A stretch of DNA of 64,000 nucleotides from Streptantibioticus silvisoli (GTDB taxonomy: Bacteria > Actinomycetota > Actinomycetes > Streptomycetales > Streptomycetaceae), in assembly GCF_027947535.2 (NCBI RefSeq), contig NZ_JAAGKO020000008.1:62001-126000 (forward strand). Direction: 5' to 3'. The first letter of the stretch is position 1. Every line of letters begins with the position of its first letter. Positions 4,151-51,479 of the stretch are shown here, in pieces. The notes under the pieces are model-generated. The model ran no database searches. It worked only from the letters and a program-made list of their open reading frames with translations, and had not been told where the DNA came from. The position numbers were made by a program, and so were the translations under genes.

Positions 4151-5755
4151 TCAGCCGCCCTTGGCCACCACCCGCAGCAGCACCTCGCCGTGCGGCCCGT
4201 GCGCCGTCTCGCGCAGCGCCGGGTCGTCCGTGGCCGGACCGCCGGCCCGCCCACGGGTCTCGATGACCCACCGCACGTGGTACTCGCGCAGCAGCGCCAG
4301 CCGTTGCGCCCGGGAGGTGCCGGCCGCGAAGTAGCGCTTGGTGTCGGCGATCCGCGCCGCCTGGTCGGGCAGGAAGAAGTCCGGCCAGCCGGGCTCGACG
4401 GTGTAACCGCCGTACGCCGGCGTCTGCCGCAGCGCCCGGAAGTCCGCCGTCATGACGACGTCGCCGTAGCGCACGTACGGCCGCACCCAGGAGTACGTGC
4501 TCCAGGCGTGCTGGGTCGGCGCGTCCCGTAGCACCGGCGGGATCGCGGCCGGCCGCAGCACGTACGACAGCGTCCCGGCCTGCGCCCAGCAGCCCACCAG
4601 CAGGCCCACCGCGGCCAGCGGCGCCAGCACGGTGCGCACCAGCTTCTCGCGCCCGTCGGCCGCCTCGACGGCCAGCGCTATCTGCGCCGGGAAGAACAGC
4701 GCCGGCAGCACCCGGCCCAGCGCGTAGTGGCCGCTGATCCCGCCCGCCGCGTAGACCACCGCGCCGAGCGCGAACATGATGACCAGCGGATCACGCCGGT
4801 CGCGCCGCAGCCGCAGCGCCAGCGCCGCCACCCCGAGCACCAGCAGCCCGAAGCGGCCCACCAGGTGGGCGTACAGCGGCTTGTGCACCGCGTCCAGGCC
4901 GCCGACGCCCAGCAGGCCGAAGAAGGAGTAGTACGGCCACACCAGCAGGATCACCGCGCACAGCGCCACCCCCGCCGCGATCCGCAGCCACACCGCCCGC
5001 GGCGGCCACGGGCGGGCACCGGCCACCACACCGATCAGGCCGAAGACCGTGACGACGCCGGTGAACTGGTGGCTCAGCAGGATCAGCGCGAGGCCCAGCC
5101 CCAGGCCCAGCCAGCCGGGCAGCCCCCAGTCGCGGGCCAGCGCCTGCCGGGCCAGCGCCCACAGGTGGAAGGCGGCGCCCATGGCGAAGGTGCTGGGGTA
5201 GGCCAGGCACAGCGCCAGCGACGTCATGCCGGGAAAGCCGCTCCAGGTGAACAGCTGCCAGCCGTACAGCAGCGTCACCGTCAGCAGCGCCAGCGGCACC
5301 GCGGCCGGCCGGGTGGTCAGGGTGCGCACGAACCGCCGCACCCCGGTGACCAGCAGCACCAGGTCGACGGCCGCCGCCAGGTGCAAGGTGGCGAAGACGC
5401 TCAGCCCGCCGATCCGGCCGGCCACCGCCAGCAGCAGCATCCACGGCGAGTAGTACGGGCTCGGTACGTCGGAGTCGACCAGCGGGTCGCCGGGCGACGT
5501 CAGGCTGTGCCGCAGCCGTTGCAGGGTGGCCGCGTGGATGCCCAGGTCCCCCACCCACGGCAGCCGCACCACCATCAGCGCCAGCAGCGCGACCACCACC
5601 AGCGCGCAGAGCCACGCCGCGCGGTACGCCAGCCCCGCCCGCCGCCAGCGTCGCCAGGACTCCAGCGGCCGGCGCGATATGCCGCCCGGTCTGCCGCCGC
5701 CCGCCCCGGCGGCCGGGGTCGGGTCGGTCGGCCCGGTCTCAGTGACGGCGGGCAC
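4151..5755 (-). CDS. Polytopic membrane protein, GT-C-like glycosyltransferase candidate
   Basis: A 534-residue protein with about 10-12 hydrophobic segments, starting near residue 45 after a basic, Pro/Gly-rich cytoplasmic leader. An acidic first-loop patch (GDLGIHAATLQRL, then DPLVDSDVPSPYYSPW) is what GT-C enzymes show in their first extracytoplasmic loop. The C-terminal ~130 residues are soluble and end in a WVIETRG segment. The start overlaps the end of the upstream polyprenol-phosphate mannose synthase gene by 17 bp, so translation is probably coupled. It may use a lipid-linked mannose made by that enzyme. That is inference from context and topology; the family itself I do not recognise with certainty. 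Confidence 0.7.
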   Translation of the reverse strand: MPAVTETGPTDPTPAAGAGGGRPGGISRRPLESWRRWRRAGLAYRAAWLCALVVVALLALMVVRLPWVGDLGIHAATLQRLRHSLTSPGDPLVDSDVPSPYYSPWMLLLAVAGRIGGLSVFATLHLAAAVDLVLLVTGVRRFVRTLTTRPAAVPLALLTVTLLYGWQLFTWSGFPGMTSLALCLAYPSTFAMGAAFHLWALARQALARDWGLPGWLGLGLGLALILLSHQFTGVVTVFGLIGVVAGARPWPPRAVWLRIAAGVALCAVILLVWPYYSFFGLLGVGGLDAVHKPLYAHLVGRFGLLVLGVAALALRLRRDRRDPLVIMFALGAVVYAAGGISGHYALGRVLPALFFPAQIALAVEAADGREKLVRTVLAPLAAVGLLVGCWAQAGTLSYVLRPAAIPPVLRDAPTQHAWSTYSWVRPYVRYGDVVMTADFRALRQTPAYGGYTVEPGWPDFFLPDQAARIADTKRYFAAGTSRAQRLALLREYHVRWVIETRGRAGGPATDDPALRETAHGPHGEVLLRVVAKGG

Positions 5756-6569
5756 GGGCCGCGTCCCATCGCATGCGCCAGGGCAGCAGCGCCGACTCCA
5801 GCTGCACCGCCAGCGTCATCTTCGACATGCCGATCTGCCGCTCCTCGAAGTGGATCGGGACCTCGACGACGGTGTAACCGGCGCGCACCGCCTGGAACTT
5901 CAGCTCCACCTGGAAGCTGTAGCCGCTGGAGCGCACCTGCGACAGACGCATCGCGGTGACCGTGTCGGCCCGCCACATGGCGAACCCGGCGGTCACGTCC
6001 CGCAGTCCGGTGCGCAGTACCGCGCTGACGTAGCCGTTGGCCCAGCGCGACAGCAGCTTGCGGTGCGCGCCCCACTCCTCGGCGAGCCGGCCGCCGGCCA
6101 CGTAGCGGCTGCCGATCACGACGCCGGCGCCGGTGGCCAGCGCGGTGCCGAGCATCTGCGCCACGTACTCCACCGGGTGGCTGCCGTCGGCGTCCATCTG
6201 GAGCACGTACCGGGCGCCCTCGGCGACCGCCTGGTCCATGCCGGCCGCGTAGGCCCGGCCCAGCCCGTCCTTGACGGTGCGGTGCAGCACCGTCACCCGG
6301 GTGCGGTCGGCGGTGTTGTGGCGGGCCGCCAGCTCCTCGGCCACCTCACCGGTGCCGTCCGGGCTGTTGTCGTCCACCACCAGCAGCCGCAGGCCGGGCA
6401 GCGGGAGGGCCAGCAGTGCCTCGGCCATCCTCGGCAGGTTCTCGGCCTCGTTGTACGTGGGCATCACCACGGTCAGCGCGGTCTCGCCCCAGCCGGCGGG
6501 CAGGTCGTGCGGGCGGCGCAGCGCCGCGGGCGGCGACTGCGGCGCGTGGGGGGTGGTCGTCACACTCAT
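5739..6569 (-). CDS. Polyprenol monophosphomannose synthase-like GT2
   Basis: A 276-residue GT2 enzyme of the DPM1/Ppm1 type. Visible motifs are LTVVMPTYNEAENLP, LLVVDDNSPDGTGE, VKDGLGRAYAAGM, VLQMDADGSHPVEYV (catalytic DXD) and VIGSRYVAGG. These are the diagnostic blocks of dolichol/polyprenol-phosphate mannose synthases, which move mannose from GDP-mannose to polyprenol phosphate for later use outside the membrane. There are no C-terminal membrane helices, so it would be a membrane-associated catalytic subunit only. I chose ATG at 6569 over the TTG one codon earlier. The gene lies 46 bp after a sugar-nucleotide pyrophosphorylase and overlaps the GT-C-like gene downstream, which suggests a donor-supply-and-transfer operon. 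Confidence 0.85.
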   Translation of the reverse strand: MSVTTTPHAPQSPPAALRRPHDLPAGWGETALTVVMPTYNEAENLPRMAEALLALPLPGLRLLVVDDNSPDGTGEVAEELAARHNTADRTRVTVLHRTVKDGLGRAYAAGMDQAVAEGARYVLQMDADGSHPVEYVAQMLGTALATGAGVVIGSRYVAGGRLAEEWGAHRKLLSRWANGYVSAVLRTGLRDVTAGFAMWRADTVTAMRLSQVRSSGYSFQVELKFQAVRAGYTVVEVPIHFEERQIGMSKMTLAVQLESALLPWRMRWDAARARRH

Positions 6570-6615
6570 CAAGGTTCTTCTCTGTCGGGGCGATCGGTCA
6601 ACTCGCCTGAGTCGG

Positions 6616-7695
6616 TCAGCAGTTGCTGGAGAAGCGGATGGCGGCCGCGGGGAGCACCGCCTCGCACCACACCCGGACGCCGTCCAGCAGTTCGTTGTCG
6701 GCGCCCACGTCGGCCCGGTCGCCGATCACCGTGCCGTCCAGCACCGTGCGGGCGCCGACGCGGGCGCCGGCGCCGATCAGGCTGCGGCGCACCTGGGCGC
6801 CGGCCCCGATCCGCGCGCCGTCCAGCACGACCGTGCCGTCCACCACCGCGTCCCGGGCGATCCTGGCGCCGGCGCCGACCACGGTGCCGCCGGACAGCTT
6901 GGCGCCGTCGGCCACCTCGGCGCCGGGCAGCACCAGGCTCTCCCCGGCGCGGCCGGGCAGCGCGGGGGAGGCGACCACGCCGCGCACCAGGTCGGCGGAG
7001 GCCTGGATGAGGGCGGCCGGCCGGCCCAGGTCCAGCCAGTACGTCTGGTCCACGACGCCGTGCAGCAGCGCGCCGGCCGCCAGCAGCGAGGGGAACGTCT
7101 CACGCTCGACGGAGACCGGGCGGCCGTCGGCGATGGTGTCGATGACGGCCCGCCGGAAGACGTAGCAGCCGGCGTTCACCTGGTCGGTGACGATCTCCTC
7201 GGGGCGCTCGGGCTTCTCGGTGAACGCCAGCACCCGGCCGGTGGCGTCGGTGGGCACCAGGCCGAAGGCGCTGGGGTCCTCCACCCGGGTCAGGTGCAGC
7301 GAGACCTCGGCGCCGGCCGTGCGGTGCCCGTCGACCAGGGCGCGGATGTCGAGCCCGGTGAGGATGTCGCCGTTGAAGACCAGCACCGGTTCGTCGGGTC
7401 CGCAGGTCAGCGCCTTGGAGGCGTTGCGGATCGCGCCGCCGGTGCCGAGCGGTTCGCGCTCGTGGACGTAGGAGATGCGCATGCCCAGCGCGGAACCGTC
7501 GCCGAAGTAGGGTTCGAAGACCTCCGCCAGGTAGGAGGTGGCCAGCGCGACGTGCGTGACGCCGGCCGCCCGGGCTCTGCTCAACTGGTGGGCGAGGAAG
7601 GGGACTCCGGCCGTCGGGACCATGGGCTTCGGCGTGTGTTCCGTGACCGGACGAAGGCGGGAGCCCTTTCCGCCGACCAGGAGGATCGCTTCCAC
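6616..7695 (-). CDS. Sugar-phosphate nucleotidyltransferase (mannose-1-phosphate guanylyltransferase-like)
   Basis: A 359-residue protein. Residues 1-240 form a nucleotidyltransferase fold with the signature ILLVGGKGSRLRPVTEHTPK (activated-phosphate grip), followed by VFNGDILTGLD and a VNAGCYVF strand. From about residue 250 the sequence turns into left-handed beta-helix hexapeptide repeats (GAEVADGAKL, GTVVGAGARI, GTVLDGARI). This layout fits ManC/GMPP-like GDP-mannose pyrophosphorylases of actinomycetes. The adjacent polyprenol-phosphate mannose synthase supports GDP-mannose as product, though other NDP-sugars cannot be excluded. GTG start at 7695, with GAGG about 9 bases before it. First gene of a leftward operon. 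Confidence 0.85.
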   Translation of the reverse strand: MEAILLVGGKGSRLRPVTEHTPKPMVPTAGVPFLAHQLSRARAAGVTHVALATSYLAEVFEPYFGDGSALGMRISYVHEREPLGTGGAIRNASKALTCGPDEPVLVFNGDILTGLDIRALVDGHRTAGAEVSLHLTRVEDPSAFGLVPTDATGRVLAFTEKPERPEEIVTDQVNAGCYVFRRAVIDTIADGRPVSVERETFPSLLAAGALLHGVVDQTYWLDLGRPAALIQASADLVRGVVASPALPGRAGESLVLPGAEVADGAKLSGGTVVGAGARIARDAVVDGTVVLDGARIGAGAQVRRSLIGAGARVGARTVLDGTVIGDRADVGADNELLDGVRVWCEAVLPAAAIRFSSNC

Positions 7696-45401: not shown

Positions 45402-46490
45402 TCACGTGTTCGGCCGGTGCCGCACGCAGAGGGCGCCCAGCCCGGTGTGGTCCGGCAGCGCCGCCGGGTGGTCCGGCCACGCCGCCGTCCGGGCCGCGTG
45501 ATCGGTGAACCGTGCGTCGGCCGGGCGTCGGTGCGCGCTCGCGGCGGCGCCGTGCGGGCCGGACCCGGGATCGGGGTGCCCGCACAGGTGGGTGTGCTGG
45601 GCGGCTTCGACCATCTGCTCGCTGTCGGTGGCGGCGTCCGTCAGGCTGGTGCAGCACAGCGTCAGCAGCAGGCCGGCGGCCACGAAGTGCAGCGGGCGGT
45701 GCCGGGGCGGCGGGGCGAGCAGCGCCCGGACCCGCTGCGGTACGGCGCCGCCGGTCGCGGCCAGCGCGGAGCCGGCCGGTCCGGCGTGCACCGCGAGCGC
45801 GGCACGGGCCACCGCCCGGGCCACCACCGTGCGGTCGCCCACCCCGGCCGCGGCGTCCTCGTCGGCCCACCGCTCCAGCACGAAGCAGCCCGCCTTCTCC
45901 ACCGGCCGCAGCAACGGGTTGACGGCCGCCGCGATCCGCCAGACGGTCTTGAACCGGTGGTGGTGATGCCGCAGGTGGGCGCGTTCGTGGGCCAGCAGCG
46001 CGGCGCGTTCGCCGGCGGCGAGGCAGTCCAGCATGCCGCGCGAGACCACGATGCGGCCGGGCCGCCCCGGCAGGGCGAACGCCTCCGGTGCCGGGTCGTC
46101 GAGCACGGCCAACTGGTCGTTGCCGGGCAGCCGCCGGCATTCGCGCCGGGCCCAGCGCAGGTCCCGCGTCTGCCGTACGACGGTGACCGCGCACGCCACG
46201 CAGGCGGTGAGCAGCACGAGGGCGCAGCCGACCGCGACGCCGAAGCGCACCGGGTCCTCGGCGCGCAGCAGCCGTACCGACCAGTGGCCCTCCCGCGCGA
46301 CCTGCGGGATCTGCGCCAGCGCGGTGAACGCCAGCAGGGCCAGCGACCCCACCCAGCCGGCCGCCGTCACCAGCGCCGCGCACAGCAGCGCCCACGCGGC
46401 CGGGCGCGGGGCGAGCCGCGGCGCGAGCCGGGGAGCGAGCAGCGCCAGCACGACGGTGACCACGATGGGGACGTAGACGTTGACCAGCAC
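45402..46490 (-). CDS. M56-family zinc metallopeptidase, BlaR1-like without sensor domain
   Basis: A 362-residue membrane protein. Three hydrophobic helices precede the catalytic site LLAHERAHLRHHHHRF (HExxH, about residues 166-170), with a downstream ERWADEDAA where the third zinc ligand is expected; a fourth helix (about 270-290) follows. The penicillin-binding sensor of true BlaR1/MecR1 is absent; in its place is a short His/Ala/Pro-rich tail. GTG start 4 bp after the BlaI-family gene, so the two form an operon. By analogy it cleaves the repressor after an envelope signal; the signal is unknown. Confidence 0.87.
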   Translation of the reverse strand: MLVNVYVPIVVTVVLALLAPRLAPRLAPRPAAWALLCAALVTAAGWVGSLALLAFTALAQIPQVAREGHWSVRLLRAEDPVRFGVAVGCALVLLTACVACAVTVVRQTRDLRWARRECRRLPGNDQLAVLDDPAPEAFALPGRPGRIVVSRGMLDCLAAGERAALLAHERAHLRHHHHRFKTVWRIAAAVNPLLRPVEKAGCFVLERWADEDAAAGVGDRTVVARAVARAALAVHAGPAGSALAATGGAVPQRVRALLAPPPRHRPLHFVAAGLLLTLCCTSLTDAATDSEQMVEAAQHTHLCGHPDPGSGPHGAAASAHRRPADARFTDHAARTAAWPDHPAALPDHTGLGALCVRHRPNT

Positions 46491-46494
46491 CGGT

Positions 46495-46947
46495 TCAGGG
46501 CCTCCCGTCGTCCGGCCCGGCGCCAGTGCCCGCGCCCGAGCCAGCGCCCTTGCCCGCGCCCGTGGCGTCGGCGAGCAGCCGGTGCAGCAGTTGTTCGTCG
46601 CGGGCCGACAGCTCCGAGACGAACCGGGTCAGTACCGCCTCCCGGTCCGAACCGCCCTCCAGCAGCGAACGCATCCCCGCCGCCGTGTGCGACGCCTCGT
46701 CCCGCACCGGTTCGTAGGCGTAGCCGCGGCCCACCCGGTGCCGTACCAGCATGCCCTTGTCGTGCAGCCGCGACAGGATGGTCAGCACCGTGGTGTACGC
46801 CAGTTCCCCCGGCAGCCGCTCGTTGACCTGGGCCGCAGTCAGCGGTTCCGAGGCCGCCCAGAGCGCGGCGAGCACGCCGCCCTCCAACTCGCCCCGCCCA
46901 CGCCTGACCGCCCGGCCGCCGGGCTTCCCGCGCTCATCGTCGCTCAC
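46495..46947 (-). CDS. BlaI/MecI/CopY-family transcriptional repressor
   Basis: A 150-residue protein with an N-terminal winged helix: ELEGGVLAALWAASEPLTAAQ, then YTTVLTILSRLHDKGMLVRHR (recognition helix and wing) and a helical dimer part with FVSELSARDEQLLHRLLAD. This is the classic BlaI layout. GTG start at 46947. First gene of the BlaI-M56 pair. Its promoter region shows no CTAC...GTAG dyad, so self-repression is not evident, but three dyads occur within 6 kb on the genes next door. The tail is Gly/Ala-rich. Confidence 0.93.
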   Translation of the reverse strand: MSDDERGKPGGRAVRRGRGELEGGVLAALWAASEPLTAAQVNERLPGELAYTTVLTILSRLHDKGMLVRHRVGRGYAYEPVRDEASHTAAGMRSLLEGGSDREAVLTRFVSELSARDEQLLHRLLADATGAGKGAGSGAGTGAGPDDGRP

Positions 46948-47034: not shown

Positions 47035-47493
47035 TCAGGCGAATTCCGTCGTCGCGGTGGTGGCGTAGCGGCCCATCACCTCGGTGGTGGTACGCGCGGT
47101 CACCTCCTGGCCGTCCGCCATCGCGGCGCCCAGGTCGCGGAAGTACTGCACGTAGAGGTCCGGGGTGAAGGTGTTGACCATCACGACGGGCTCGTCGCCG
47201 GGGTTGGCGAAGGTGTGCGGGACCCCGGGCGGAACCATCACCAACGTGCCCGCCGGCGCCTCGTAGTCGGTCTGCCCGACGGTGAACACGGCGGTGCCGG
47301 ACACGACGTAGAAGCCCTCGTCGTGCGCGGCGTGCCGGTGCTGGGGCGGGCCGGCGCTGTGCGGGGCGAGGGTGACCTCGCCGATCCCCAGGCGGTGCGC
47401 GGTCGTGCCGCCGTCCTCGAGGATGCGCATCCGGGCCGGCCCCAACGGGATCACTTCGCCGCCGTCGGGCGCGACAACCGATACGTCGTTCAT
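47035..47493 (-). CDS. Cupin-domain protein
   Basis: A 152-residue single-cupin protein. Motif 1: GPPQHRHAAHDEGFYVVSG (His pair, Glu); motif 2: PAGTLVMVPPGVPHTFAN (last His). Metal-binding residues are intact, so it may be an enzyme or a sensor, but the reaction cannot be read from sequence. ATG with AAGGAGC upstream. Divergent from the TetR gene, with a shared control region that carries paired ACTYTCATGA boxes. Confidence 0.88.
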   Translation of the reverse strand: MNDVSVVAPDGGEVIPLGPARMRILEDGGTTAHRLGIGEVTLAPHSAGPPQHRHAAHDEGFYVVSGTAVFTVGQTDYEAPAGTLVMVPPGVPHTFANPGDEPVVMVNTFTPDLYVQYFRDLGAAMADGQEVTARTTTEVMGRYATTATTEFA

Positions 47494-47516
47494 GGCCTGC
47501 TCCTTCGTAAGAGGCT

Positions 47517-47569
47517 ACTTTCATGAAACTAGTCGACATGCGCGACGTTATGCAAGTGGGCTCTCGTTA
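47517..47569. promoter_or_regulatory. Cupin/tetR divergent control region with paired boxes
   Basis: Boxes ACTTTCATGA (47517-47526) and GCTCTCGTTA (47560-47569) are 43 bp apart. Read leftward, between or over them lie TTGCAT and, 17 bases on, CTAGTT, a likely cupin promoter. The same arrangement occurs at 50914-50965 before the alpha/beta hydrolase gene. Confidence 0.55.
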
Positions 47570-47596
47570 TCAGGGTTTGCTTGCTACGCTGGCGTC

Positions 47597-48232
47597 ATGC
47601 AGAACGGCGAAACGACGACACCGCGCGGCACCACCGGCCGCGCCAACCAGAAGCTGCGCACGCGCAACGCGATCCTCCAGGCCGCGGTGGAGCTGATGCG
47701 CACCGGCCGCGAGGTGACCATGCTGGAGGTCGCCAGGACGGCCCTGGTGTCCGAGGCCACCGCGTACCGGTACTTTCCCGACCTGGCCAGCCTGCTGCGG
47801 GAGGCGATGGCCGGGCAGATGCCCAGCCCGCAGGAGGCGCTCGCCTCCGTCGCGGACTCCCGCGACCCGGTGGAGCGCGTCGCCGCCGCCACCGAGCACC
47901 TGCTGCGCCTGGTCCTGGGCTACCAGGGGGCGACCCGCGCCATGATCGCGGCCACCATCACCCGGCCCGCGACGGCCGACGCCCGCCCCGGCCTGCGCTT
48001 CGGCCTGATCGACCACGCGCTCGCCCCGCTGGACGACACCCTCGGGGCCACCGATCCGGCCGCCCTGACCCGGCTGAAGAACGACCTCGCGGTGGTGGTC
48101 AGCGCCGAGGCCCTCTTCTGCCTGACCGACCTGTGCCGGCTCGACCCGCAGGACGCCATCGCCAGCGTGGTCCGCACCGCCTCGACCCTGACCCGCGCCG
48201 CCGTGACGGCGATGGACGCTCCGGCGGGCTGA
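47597..48232 (+). CDS. TetR/AcrR-family transcriptional regulator
   Basis: A 211-residue regulator. The helix-turn-helix is in RNAILQAAVELMRTGREVTM and LEVARTALVSEATAYRYFPD (about residues 21-62); the C-terminal ligand-binding half has no clear family. ATG at 47597. It is flanked by a cupin gene (divergent) and an MFS exporter plus alpha/beta hydrolase (convergent). The shared boxes in the cupin and hydrolase promoters make it the obvious candidate repressor of both. Confidence 0.92.
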   Translation: MQNGETTTPRGTTGRANQKLRTRNAILQAAVELMRTGREVTMLEVARTALVSEATAYRYFPDLASLLREAMAGQMPSPQEALASVADSRDPVERVAAATEHLLRLVLGYQGATRAMIAATITRPATADARPGLRFGLIDHALAPLDDTLGATDPAALTRLKNDLAVVVSAEALFCLTDLCRLDPQDAIASVVRTASTLTRAAVTAMDAPAG

Positions 48233-48251
48233 CCACCGTTCGGTACGGTGG
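48233..48251. terminator. Short hairpin between tetR and the MFS gene
   Basis: CCACCGT-TCGGT-ACGGTGG, a perfect 7-bp stem, begins right after the tetR stop. The convergent MFS gene ends at 48298. Confidence 0.55.
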
Positions 48252-48297
48252 CCGGCCCGCCGGCGCGAGGGTCACGCCTCGGTGCGACGGTCACCGG

Positions 48298-49842
48298 TCA
48301 CCCCCGGCGCGACGGCCACCGTGCGGGGCTGATCATCGGTGCGGCCGGTGCGGGCTGCGTTGTCGGGGTGAGCGGCGTGACCGGCGTGACCGGTGCGGCC
48401 GGCGTCGACCGCGTGGCCGGTTCGGCGGGGAAGCGGGCGGCGATCCGTGCGGCGCCGGCGGTGGCCCGGCCGGTGGTGGTGAGGATGCCCAGGAGCACGA
48501 TCAGGGCGCCGCATCCGGCCAGCGACCACCACGCGGTGTGCCCGGCCGCGGTGAACCCGGTGCGCAGCGGGCCGTGGGTGTGCGCGGTGACGATCGAGCC
48601 GAGGACGGCCACCCCGAGGCTGTTGCCGATCTGGCGGGCGGTCGTGGTGATCGCGGCGGACACCCCGGCCCGGGCGCGCGGCATCCCGGCGACGGCCATG
48701 CTGGTGATCGGGGTGTTGACCAGGCCGAATCCGCAGCCGAGCAGCACGTAGGCGATCAGCAGCACCGGCAGCGCGGTGGTCGCGGTGACGGTGGTCAGCG
48801 TCAGCGCGCCGGCGGCCACCAGCCCCCCGGCGGCGACCAGCGGCAGGCGCGGACCGTGCGCGGCGGTCAGGCGGCCGGACACCGGGGAGGCGACGGCGGT
48901 TCCGGCGGCCATCGGGACCGTGAGCAGTCCGGCGTGCAGCGCGCTGTAGCCGCGTACGTCCTGGAGGTACAAGGTGTTGAGGAACAGGAAGCCCGCCAGG
49001 GCCAGGAACGCGGTGACCGCCGTGACGAACGCGCCGGTGAACGGCACGGACCGGAAGAAAGCCGGGTCGATCAGCGGCTGGTCGCGGCGCCGTTCGTAGC
49101 AGGGCAGCGCGAGGGCCGCGGCGCCGGCCAGGATGAACAGGCCGATGATCGGCGTGCTGCCGTAACCGCGGTGGGCGCCTTCGATGATCGCGCAGATGAG
49201 CGCGACCAGGACGGTGACGACCAGCGCCTGCCCGACCGGATCGCGGCGGCGCGCGGTCGCGGACCGCGACTCGGGCACCAGGACGGCGCTGAGCACCAGA
49301 GCGGCCGATCCGACCGGGATGTTGATCCAGAAGATCGCCCGCCAGCCGGCCGTTCCGACCAGCAGACCGCCGACCACCGGGCCCAGCGACAGCGACAGGC
49401 CGACCGTCGCTCCCCACACGCCGATGGCGCGGGCGCGTTCGCGCGGGTCGGCGAAGGTGTGGGTGATGATCGACAGCGCGACCGGGTTGAGCATGCTGGC
49501 GCCCAGGCCCTGCGCCACGCGGAAGGCGACCAGCCACGGCAGGTCCGGGGCCAGGGAGCAGGCCAGCGAGCCGGCGGTGAACAGCGCCAGGCCGGCCTGG
49601 AAGACCCGGCGCCGCCCGATCCGGTCCGCGGTGGACCCGGCGAGCAGCATGAAGCCGGCGATCGCCAGCGTGTAGCCGTCGACGGTCCACTGCAACCCGC
49701 TGACCGCCGGGTGCAGATCGCGCTGGACGGCCGGCAGCGCGACGTTCACCGCGGAGGTGTCGAGCACGGTGATCAGCAGACTCAGGCAGCACACCGCCAG
49801 TACGAGCACTCGGCGCCGCCGGGCGGGATCGGGCGTGGTCAC
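48298..49842 (-). CDS. MFS transporter, DHA2 family (14 helices)
   Basis: A 514-residue drug:proton antiporter of the EmrB/QacA type. The N-terminal LLITVLDTSAVNVALPAVQRD (motif D1), GSTADRIGRRRVFQAG (motif A) and RVAQGLGASMLNP (motif B/C region) are present. About 14 helices are visible. GTG 49842 follows GAGGAGGCAGAA at good spacing; the longer frame to 49965 adds only a Pro/Thr-rich leader. It lies 186 bp after the alpha/beta hydrolase gene and may share its transcript. Likely exports a toxic compound sensed by the TetR protein. Confidence 0.92.
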   Translation of the reverse strand: MTTPDPARRRRVLVLAVCCLSLLITVLDTSAVNVALPAVQRDLHPAVSGLQWTVDGYTLAIAGFMLLAGSTADRIGRRRVFQAGLALFTAGSLACSLAPDLPWLVAFRVAQGLGASMLNPVALSIITHTFADPRERARAIGVWGATVGLSLSLGPVVGGLLVGTAGWRAIFWINIPVGSAALVLSAVLVPESRSATARRRDPVGQALVVTVLVALICAIIEGAHRGYGSTPIIGLFILAGAAALALPCYERRRDQPLIDPAFFRSVPFTGAFVTAVTAFLALAGFLFLNTLYLQDVRGYSALHAGLLTVPMAAGTAVASPVSGRLTAAHGPRLPLVAAGGLVAAGALTLTTVTATTALPVLLIAYVLLGCGFGLVNTPITSMAVAGMPRARAGVSAAITTTARQIGNSLGVAVLGSIVTAHTHGPLRTGFTAAGHTAWWSLAGCGALIVLLGILTTTGRATAGAARIAARFPAEPATRSTPAAPVTPVTPLTPTTQPAPAAPMISPARWPSRRG

Positions 49843-50028
49843 TTCTGCCTCCTCGGTGGGGGATCGCGGGGGCGCGGCAGGCAACGGGGTCGCGCTCGCG
49901 GTGGGTGTCGGGGTCGGGCTCGGGGCCGGTACGGGCTGCCGGGCGTGCCGCGGTTCGCCGCGCACGGCACGGCACCGCGCCCGCCGGGGGCCGCCGTGAT
50001 CGCGGCGCCGGGCGGGCGCGGGAGGGGG

Positions 50029-50850
50029 TCACTCACCGTCGGGCTTCACCTCGGCGTCCACGAAGTCCCCGATGGCGCCGAAGACCGTGCCGGGCTGCTC
50101 GATGTGCGGGAAGTGCCCGGCCTGCGGGACGGGCCGGAAGGTGGCCCGGGGGAAGGACGCGGCCAGGGTGCGTTCGTACTCCAGCGGCACGATCCCGTCC
50201 TGCTCGCCGGCGAGCACCAGCACCGGAACGGTGACCCGGTGCAGGCGGCCGCGCAGCTTCGGGTCGTGGCCGGCGCCCGTGTAGACCGCCTGGGTCCGCT
50301 GGTTGGCGGCCGTCCCGGCCTTCTGCTGCTCGCTCAACGTGCTCGGGTCGAGGCGCAACTCCGGCTTGTGGAAGGCCAGTTCACCGGTACGGATCGGCCC
50401 GAGCTTCGCGGGGTCGGCGATCTCCAGCGGCGGCTCGGGCGTGATGCCGGTCGCGGCGAGCAGCACCAGCGCGCTGATCCGGCCGCGGTTGTCGCGCAGG
50501 CCCATCTCGGCGGTGACCCAGCCGCCGATCGAGTTGCCGACCACCATGACCGCGGTCAGGCCGAGTTCCTCGATCAGGTCCAGGTAGGCCACGGCCAGGT
50601 CGGCGACCGAGTCGGTCGACTCCGGCCGGTGCGTGCCGTCGAACCCGGGGTGGGTCGGCACGACGACGTAGGCGTGCTCGGACATCGCGGTCGCGAAACC
50701 GGCGACCGAGCGCGGCCCGGCGCCACCGTGCAGCACCAGCGCGCCGGTGCCGGCCGCGGCGGCGGCGTCGCCGTACTCGTCAAGGGTGATGCGCAGGCCG
50801 TTGCGCAGCTCGACCGTGCGGGTGGTGCGGGCGGGGGTGGTGACAGTCAT
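50029..50850 (-). CDS. Alpha/beta-fold hydrolase
   Basis: A 273-residue hydrolase. Oxyanion region LVLHGGAGPRSVAGF, nucleophile Ser in VMVVGNSIGGWVTAEM (about residue 103), Asp in LVLAGEQDGIVPLE and His in PQAGHFPHIEQP: a full triad. Substrate unknown. ATG 50850 with AAGGGA upstream. The promoter region holds two ACTCTCATGA boxes and a TTGCAT-N17-CATACT promoter read leftward, like the cupin promoter. Confidence 0.9.
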   Translation of the reverse strand: MTVTTPARTTRTVELRNGLRITLDEYGDAAAAAGTGALVLHGGAGPRSVAGFATAMSEHAYVVVPTHPGFDGTHRPESTDSVADLAVAYLDLIEELGLTAVMVVGNSIGGWVTAEMGLRDNRGRISALVLLAATGITPEPPLEIADPAKLGPIRTGELAFHKPELRLDPSTLSEQQKAGTAANQRTQAVYTGAGHDPKLRGRLHRVTVPVLVLAGEQDGIVPLEYERTLAASFPRATFRPVPQAGHFPHIEQPGTVFGAIGDFVDAEVKPDGE

Positions 50851-50913
50851 GGTGCGATTCCCTTGGCGTCGATACCGGTCTTGGGTGACCGCCAACCCCC
50901 TTCCTGGGGGCTG

Positions 50914-50965
50914 ACTCTCATGAGTATGGGCCACTCCCATCGTTCATGCAAGTCCACTCTCATGA
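50914..50965. promoter_or_regulatory. Paired ACTCTCATGA boxes before the alpha/beta hydrolase
   Basis: Two identical ACTCTCATGA boxes (50914-50923 and 50956-50965), 42 bp apart, bracket a leftward promoter candidate TTGCAT-N17-CATACT. Compare 47517-47569. Confidence 0.6.
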
Positions 50966-51479
50966 TGAGTGCTGGCATGACGCGACGGAGCGGGATCGGG
51001 TCGCCGCCGGTGCTTGTCCCTGCCGGGCGGCGGTCAGGGGCTCATGCGGTCGGCGCTCATGCGGTCAGGGGTTTGTGCGGTCAGGGGCTCATGCGGTCAG
51101 GGGTTTGTGCGGTCAGGGGCTCATGCGGCCAGGGGCTTGTGCGGCCGGGCGGGCCGGGCGGAGCGCATGGGTGGGGTGACGTCACCGGGGGATCGGACCG
51201 GGTGTTCTCACCGGGCGGGGCCGGTCGCGGTGGAGTCCGTCGCCACGGGGGACGGGGACCATGCCGTCGACGGGCGGGCCGGGGACGCGCCGGGCCGTGG
51301 TGCTTCCCCGGTCGGCCACCCGACTCGGGCGATCACCGCATGCGGGCCGCCGCCGGACCTGCGCGGCGGGCCGGAGCGCGGCGAGTTCACGCACTCCGGG
51401 TCGATGCTCCGTCAGCCCCCGGGGCCGTTGCCCGCGTAGCGGTTGATCCCGGAGCCGTCCCCGCGTCGGCGTGCCGGTG
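50966..51479. other. Intergenic with a 15-bp repeat array
   Basis: 514 bp without a supported gene. 51034-51150 is a tandem array (see next entry). The rest is GC-rich with only short or shadow frames. Confidence 0.55.
51034..51150. repeat. Imperfect 15-bp tandem array
   Basis: Alternating units such as CTCATGCGGTCAGGG and TTTGTGCGGTCAGGG repeat about seven times. Being 15 bp it keeps an open frame, but it has no gene-like ends. Confidence 0.9.

Follow-up and report, generated by a model that had tools for sequence, protein, structure and literature searches.

A predicted TetR-family regulon with paired operators at cupin and alpha/beta hydrolase promoters in Streptantibioticus silvisoli

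In the 64,000-nucleotide stretch of the Streptantibioticus silvisoli genome analyzed here (contig NZ_JAAGKO020000008.1, positions 62,001 to 126,000; hereafter the window), a cupin gene and an alpha/beta hydrolase gene are preceded by copies of the same promoter, and a gene for a TetR-family regulator lies between them. On comparative-genomic grounds, we proposed that this regulator, encoded at 47597, very probably represses both its own gene and a regulon for the detoxification or catabolism of a small molecule, acting through two operators at each target promoter and being released by a ligand. The promoter recurs in roughly 60 soil-dwelling relatives. The genes of the locus are as follows.

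47035..47493, minus strand: cupin, single-domain, 152 aa (Pfam Cupin_2, E 4e-20), with both metal-binding motifs (HRHAAHDE; PPGVPHTFAN)
47597..48232, plus strand: TetR-family regulator, 211 aa (Pfam TetR_N), proposed to repress its own gene and the regulon
about 48298..49842, minus strand: DHA2 (EmrB/QacA type) MFS efflux transporter (TIGR00711), with an inferred start codon
50029..50850, minus strand: alpha/beta hydrolase, 273 aa (Pfam Abhydrolase_6, E 1e-19; Abhydrolase_1, E 8e-18), with the nucleophile motif GNSIGGW

The cupin and tetR genes diverge across a gap of 103 bp, and the MFS gene lies on the same strand as the hydrolase gene, approximately 190 bp downstream. At 45402-46947, the gene of a BlaI-type repressor (Penicillinase_R) is followed by a same-strand open reading frame with an HExxH-like segment, an arrangement that resembles the BlaI/M56 peptidase pair.

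The likeness of the two promoters had been described in an earlier note as paired ACTYTCATGA boxes, read on the strand opposite to transcription. The boxes were exact at 47517-47526, 50914-50923, and 50956-50965, but the sequence at 47560 reads GCTCTCGTTA, with three mismatches, and corresponds to the -35-side operator in diverged form. When at most one mismatch was allowed, ACTYTCATGA had five matches in the window compared with 0.96 expected, a number reached by none of 100 shuffles; the whole 8.7-Mb genome contained five occurrences, three of them inside the window, and the pattern ACTTGCAT-N16-28-TCATGA occurred twice in the genome, exactly at the cupin and hydrolase promoters. The reported spacings of 43 and 42 bp were correct between the GAGAG/GAAAG half-sites (47565 to 47522; 50961 to 50919). 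Likewise, the leftward TTGCAT promoter was recovered in both regions, as TTGCAT-N18-TAGTTT (cupin) and TTGCAT-N17-CATACT (hydrolase), and the common ATGCAAGT-N3-CTCTC proved to be the -35 hexamer plus its operator read on the opposite strand. ACTYTCATGA was dropped as a unit, being the reverse complement of the strand-shared TCATGARAGT and covering just part of each operator. The true shared unit is the whole promoter of about 73 bp with its two operators, not the paired 10-bp boxes, and its parts are listed below.

47505..47578, minus strand: complete cupin promoter-operator, also upstream of the divergent tetR (profile R1, 44.6 bits, E 7e-11 over the whole genome)
47552..47565, minus strand: cupin predicted operator 1, GAGAG-CCCA-CTTGC (from sequence; conserved in orthologous promoters; holds most of the -35)
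47550-47555, minus strand: cupin -35, TTGCAT (from sequence)
47526..47531, minus strand: cupin -10, TAGTTT (from sequence; 18 bp past the -35)
47509..47522, minus strand: cupin predicted operator 2, GAAAG-TAGC-CTCTT (from sequence; 43 bp from operator 1)
47585..47590, plus strand: putative tetR -10, TACGCT (CTTGCTA-type box near the start, conserved in many orthologues)
50903..50974, minus strand: complete hydrolase(-MFS) promoter-operator (profile R1, 55.3 bits, E 3e-14 over the whole genome)
50948..50961, minus strand: hydrolase predicted operator 1, GAGAG-TGGA-CTTGC (from sequence; holds most of the -35)
50946-50951, minus strand: hydrolase -35, TTGCAT (from sequence)
50923..50928, minus strand: hydrolase -10, CATACT (from sequence; 17 bp past the -35)
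50906..50919, minus strand: hydrolase predicted operator 2, GAGAG-TCAG-CCCCC (from sequence; 42 bp from operator 1; distal half degenerate)

All of these operators are GAGAG-N4-CTYKC-like and lie 42 or 43 bp (four helical turns) apart, one containing the -35 (TTGCAT) and the other lying just past the -10; one-sided degeneracy was observed in hydrolase operator 2 and in cupin operator 1. A position matrix derived from other genomes only assigned 74.8 and 76.8 bits to the two window promoters, compared with -21.5 bits for the best non-overlapping window sequence and a maximum of -21.6 bits in 30 simulated windows. Directly upstream of the hydrolase promoter, at 51030-51145, a GCGGTCAGGGGCTCATGCGGTCAGGGGTTTGT-type unit is repeated a few times in tandem.

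The search of the genome for further copies, as the earlier note had advised, was carried out with a sequence-only profile (R1) built from 40 sites, all from other genomes, with the window sequences left out. Over the 8.7-Mb genome, R1 found exactly four promoters, at 57.1, 55.3, 44.6, and 36.6 bits: those of the cupin and the hydrolase, plus a divergent pair on contig C68 (57.1 and 36.6 bits); the next matches were opposite-strand readings of two of these elements. The pair on C68 precedes genes for a double alpha/beta hydrolase of 546 aa and a luciferase-like monooxygenase of 288 aa (Bac_luciferase), and the strongest copy in the genome is the one before the double hydrolase. Weaker matches in two relatives (G074 and G084) likewise had related monooxygenases behind them. 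The C68 sites support the view that the predicted regulon reaches a second contig and takes in the double hydrolase and the monooxygenase encoded there. The 546-aa protein (C68; locus coordinates 5533-7173) contains two alpha/beta hydrolase domains arranged in tandem, and both are related to the hydrolase of the window. In the same profile search of the genome, a second cupin gene (C1:120868) was without the element, and no separate operator was found directly before the MFS gene. Thus, the proposal that one regulator controls the cupin, the hydrolase, and perhaps the MFS exporter stood for the two enzyme genes, which share the element, whereas control of the exporter would depend on presumed co-transcription with the hydrolase.

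To which regulator the element belongs was addressed by its distribution. Orthologues of TetR were present in 62 of 395 Streptomycetaceae genomes, and the element, scanned for across all 395 with stricter filters, was present in 59: 59 of the 62 TetR-positive genomes versus none of the 333 TetR-negative ones (Fisher 3e-67, phylogeny ignored, related genomes not being independent cases). The training of the profile drew on part of the TetR-positive set, and neither the negative set nor the window genome was used. Among carriers of a related cupin, 59 of 61 TetR-positive genomes had the element, versus 0 of 79 TetR-negative ones. A strict IUPAC pattern matched in 34 genomes, all TetR-positive, and its reversed-pattern control in none of the genomes listed. 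Three TetR-positive genomes had no profile match (G213, G327, and G392); the TetRs of G327 and G392 are only 44-52% identical, G213 gave a partial match only, and G392, whose TetR is 51% identical, carries a variant site, TGAGAGTCGACTTGCATG, before its cupin. The TetR matches in six genomes (G315, G161, G027, G338, G177, and G049) contain one or two internal stops and may be pseudogenes or alignment-end artefacts.

The TetR, the cupin, and the element could travel as one cassette, and the counter-evidence is limited to remote sites and to the TetR-negative cupin carriers. In several genomes (G018, G026, G061, G070, G102, G119, G140, G177, G178, G194, and G298), sites are located at a distance from tetR or even on a different contig, and wherever a gene was found behind such remote sites, it too encoded a cupin, hydrolase, or monooxygenase; adjacency alone therefore cannot explain the link between element and TetR. 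The tetR gene itself carries the element: cupin operator 1 (47552-47565) falls at the -35 region of tetR, and where tetR is located away from the cupin gene, a single operator is kept upstream of its own start (L051, L060-L063, and L074). The operator is thus conserved at both the regulator's own and the target promoters, which is consistent with autoregulation. The putative tetR -10 lies only 6 bp before the ATG, so the transcript would be near-leaderless. That tetR carries the element as the other targets do, and that sites occur at several loci, would also be expected if a regulator encoded elsewhere bound the element and tetR were merely one target. We consider this improbable, since none of the 333 genomes of the family without TetR carries the element, such a regulator would need an identical distribution, and across the examined loci no other regulator recurred as a neighbour of the element. 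Taken together, the distribution, the operator at tetR, and the remote sites gave strong comparative-genomic support to the suggestion of the earlier note that there is one regulator, most simply the TetR protein.

In the proposed mechanism, a TetR dimer would bind each GAGAG-TNNA-CTYKC-like operator, two of which, 42 or 43 bp apart, are predicted at the structural-gene promoters and one at tetR. Because 42-43 bp corresponds to four turns, two dimers would sit on one face of the DNA. With operator 1 on the -35 and operator 2 right after the -10, the geometry suits repression by occlusion, and the bound repressor may block RNA polymerase at both ends, over the -35 hexamer and just past the -10; tetR, with its one operator, would be under looser repression than its targets. 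Repression is also predicted from the arrangement of the genes: TetR regulators of Streptomyces located less than 200 bp from a divergent neighbour usually repress that neighbour (PMC3511530), and the cupin-tetR gap of 103 bp is within this range. Some TetR-family proteins are known to activate, as AtrA did its neighbour (PMC3511530); however, a TetR that activates, or both activates and represses, these promoters is a still less probable reading, since the operator positions fit occlusion, and both hexamers and the 17- or 18-bp spacer are near canonical, so that the promoter should need no activator. As for the repressor that we favour, its release would be caused by a small organic ligand, probably one on which the enzymes or the pump act. 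Release would turn on the cupin (a putative metal-dependent oxygenase or isomerase), at least one alpha/beta hydrolase, and the luciferase-like monooxygenase, as well as the DHA2 pump through presumed read-through from the hydrolase gene; the overall order would be to modify, cleave, and export.

We compared the loci of the 62 TetR-positive genomes among the 395 Streptomycetaceae. Absence of the boxes from orthologous loci had been named as a finding that would speak against a common regulator, and the boxes were present there. The genes remained clustered in varying order, with TetR next to the cupin, the hydrolase, the MFS gene, or several of these, and the conserved element preceded the cupin or the hydrolase gene. 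Aligned matches gave the consensus C-ACTCTC-N-T-N-ATGAGAG-T-N-CA-CTTGCATGA-(about 14 nt)-CCTAC-N2-TCATGAGAGTCAGCTCTCACGA, in which GAGAG, TTGCA, and the TA of the -10 were near-invariant while the spacer diverged. The operators were 42 bp (n = 35) or 43 bp (n = 29) apart, with a few at 45-46 bp, and the -35/-10 spacer measured 17 (46 cases) or 18 bp (30 cases), together 76 of 79 matched spacings. Listed matches scored about 20-87 bits, mostly above 35, compared with at most 3.5 bits in a reversed-sequence control of 0.94 Mb. Behind 100 examined sites there were 51 cupin, 39 hydrolase, and 3 luciferase-like monooxygenase genes; the remaining seven sites were without a called gene, several of them being opposite-strand readings. 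In a second family of the same class, relatives also have the cupin, the TetR, and the element. Because cupin and hydrolase genes are often adjacent in relatives, an ancestral promoter could be common to both, but recent promoter duplication or shared cassette ancestry without selection for a regulator is the least credible of the alternatives, as GAGAG, TTGCA, and the distal half-site stay near-invariant across many species while the intervening 14-16 bp diverge freely, and the related cupins of TetR-negative genomes, like the second cupin of S. silvisoli, are without the element.

Some loci had features of their own. One genome (G057:C1:3950228-3967042) carries the TetR-cupin-hydrolase locus twice, inverted, approximately 16 kb apart, and with identical match scores. 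SDR and AraC-type regulator genes lie near both of two remote cupin-hydrolase sites (L137 and L138, in G177 and G298), and a SnoaL-like gene is annotated near the former.

The regulator scored above the gathering cut-off of TetR_N (PF00440; 26.2 versus 24 bits), and its AlphaFold2 model is helical throughout (mean pLDDT 63, with a low-confidence ligand domain). Its ALVSEATAYRxFPDL segment is invariant in 17 of 17 aligned orthologues, and VSEATAYR, in the DNA-binding domain, was unchanged in all TetRs compared, including the 51%-identical protein of G392. The cupin has motifs 1 and 2 with three His and one Glu (HRHAAHDEGFYVVSG and GTLVMVPPGVPHTFAN), and the His, Glu, and Asn of the metal-binding motifs are invariant in 17 orthologues; its predicted structure (pLDDT 79) resembled generic cupins (Kribbella 5j7m, tm1459, KdgF, RemF, and YxaG), and the fold search returned no decisive enzyme class among the matches. 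For the hydrolase, the nearest NCBIfam models were those of enol-lactonase (PcaD), far under the cut-off, and the MFS protein exceeded the EmrB subfamily cut-off of TIGR00711 (259.9 versus 230.2 bits). Judged by their families, the proteins may oxidize (monooxygenase, cupin), hydrolyze (alpha/beta hydrolase), and export (DHA2 pump) some toxic or uncommon organic compound, from which we infer a detoxification role. A bolder proposal, which we regard as possible but rather unlikely, is that an unusual TetR design, with the -35 inside an operator half-site and a second operator four turns away past the -10, governs a conserved pathway of actinobacteria that is so far undescribed. This pathway (luciferase-like monooxygenase, cupin, alpha/beta hydrolase, and efflux) would degrade one particular compound, a natural product or one from plants, that is not known as a Streptomyces substrate so far. 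More generally, four generically annotated protein families are joined into a single functional unit, and its operator is defined sharply enough to be used as a query against any actinobacterial genome. The TetR with its promoter of about 75 bp is a ready reporter for ligand screening, and the ligand, if found, would show what chemistry is carried out by a cupin and hydrolase family that many Streptomycetaceae possess.

A search of open-licence papers found no description of the motif or of a TetR/cupin/hydrolase regulon; the regulon is apparently undescribed, and otherwise of familiar type. The QdoR/LmrA regulon of Bacillus subtilis, the nearest analogy, also includes an MFS pump, LmrB. As in the QdoR(YxaF)/LmrA system, a TetR-family regulator is paired here with two operators at a cupin-enzyme promoter and one at the regulator promoter (PMC8481877). 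In B. subtilis, the two operators at qdoI and the one at qdoR give strong versus weak repression, and quercetin releases both (PMC8481877). In contrast to QdoI, a two-domain quercetin dioxygenase of YxaG type, the window cupin is single-domain with 152 aa (YxaG, 1y3t, is a distant match, E 4e-6), and its putative regulon adds an alpha/beta hydrolase and a luciferase-like monooxygenase; sequence searches found no recognisable kinship between the window TetR and the QdoR/LmrA regulators. The flavonoid analogy serves only as a lead. Solved TetR-family proteins (3ang, 3aqs, 2rek, 3vuq, and DesT 3lsj) are similar mostly in the N-terminal DNA-binding domain (E 4e-5 to 4e-4), their ligand domains not being comparable with that of the window TetR. 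The divergent gene at 103 bp and the predicted operators in the intergenic DNA recall the TetR/TetA-type divergent pairs of Streptomyces (PMC3511530); unlike in those pairs, the proposed targets include further promoters, one set of them on another contig, and are mainly enzymes, with the efflux gene downstream of one. Overall, the combination resembles a Gram-positive detoxification switch built on the QdoR plan, one that may have arisen separately or diverged far.
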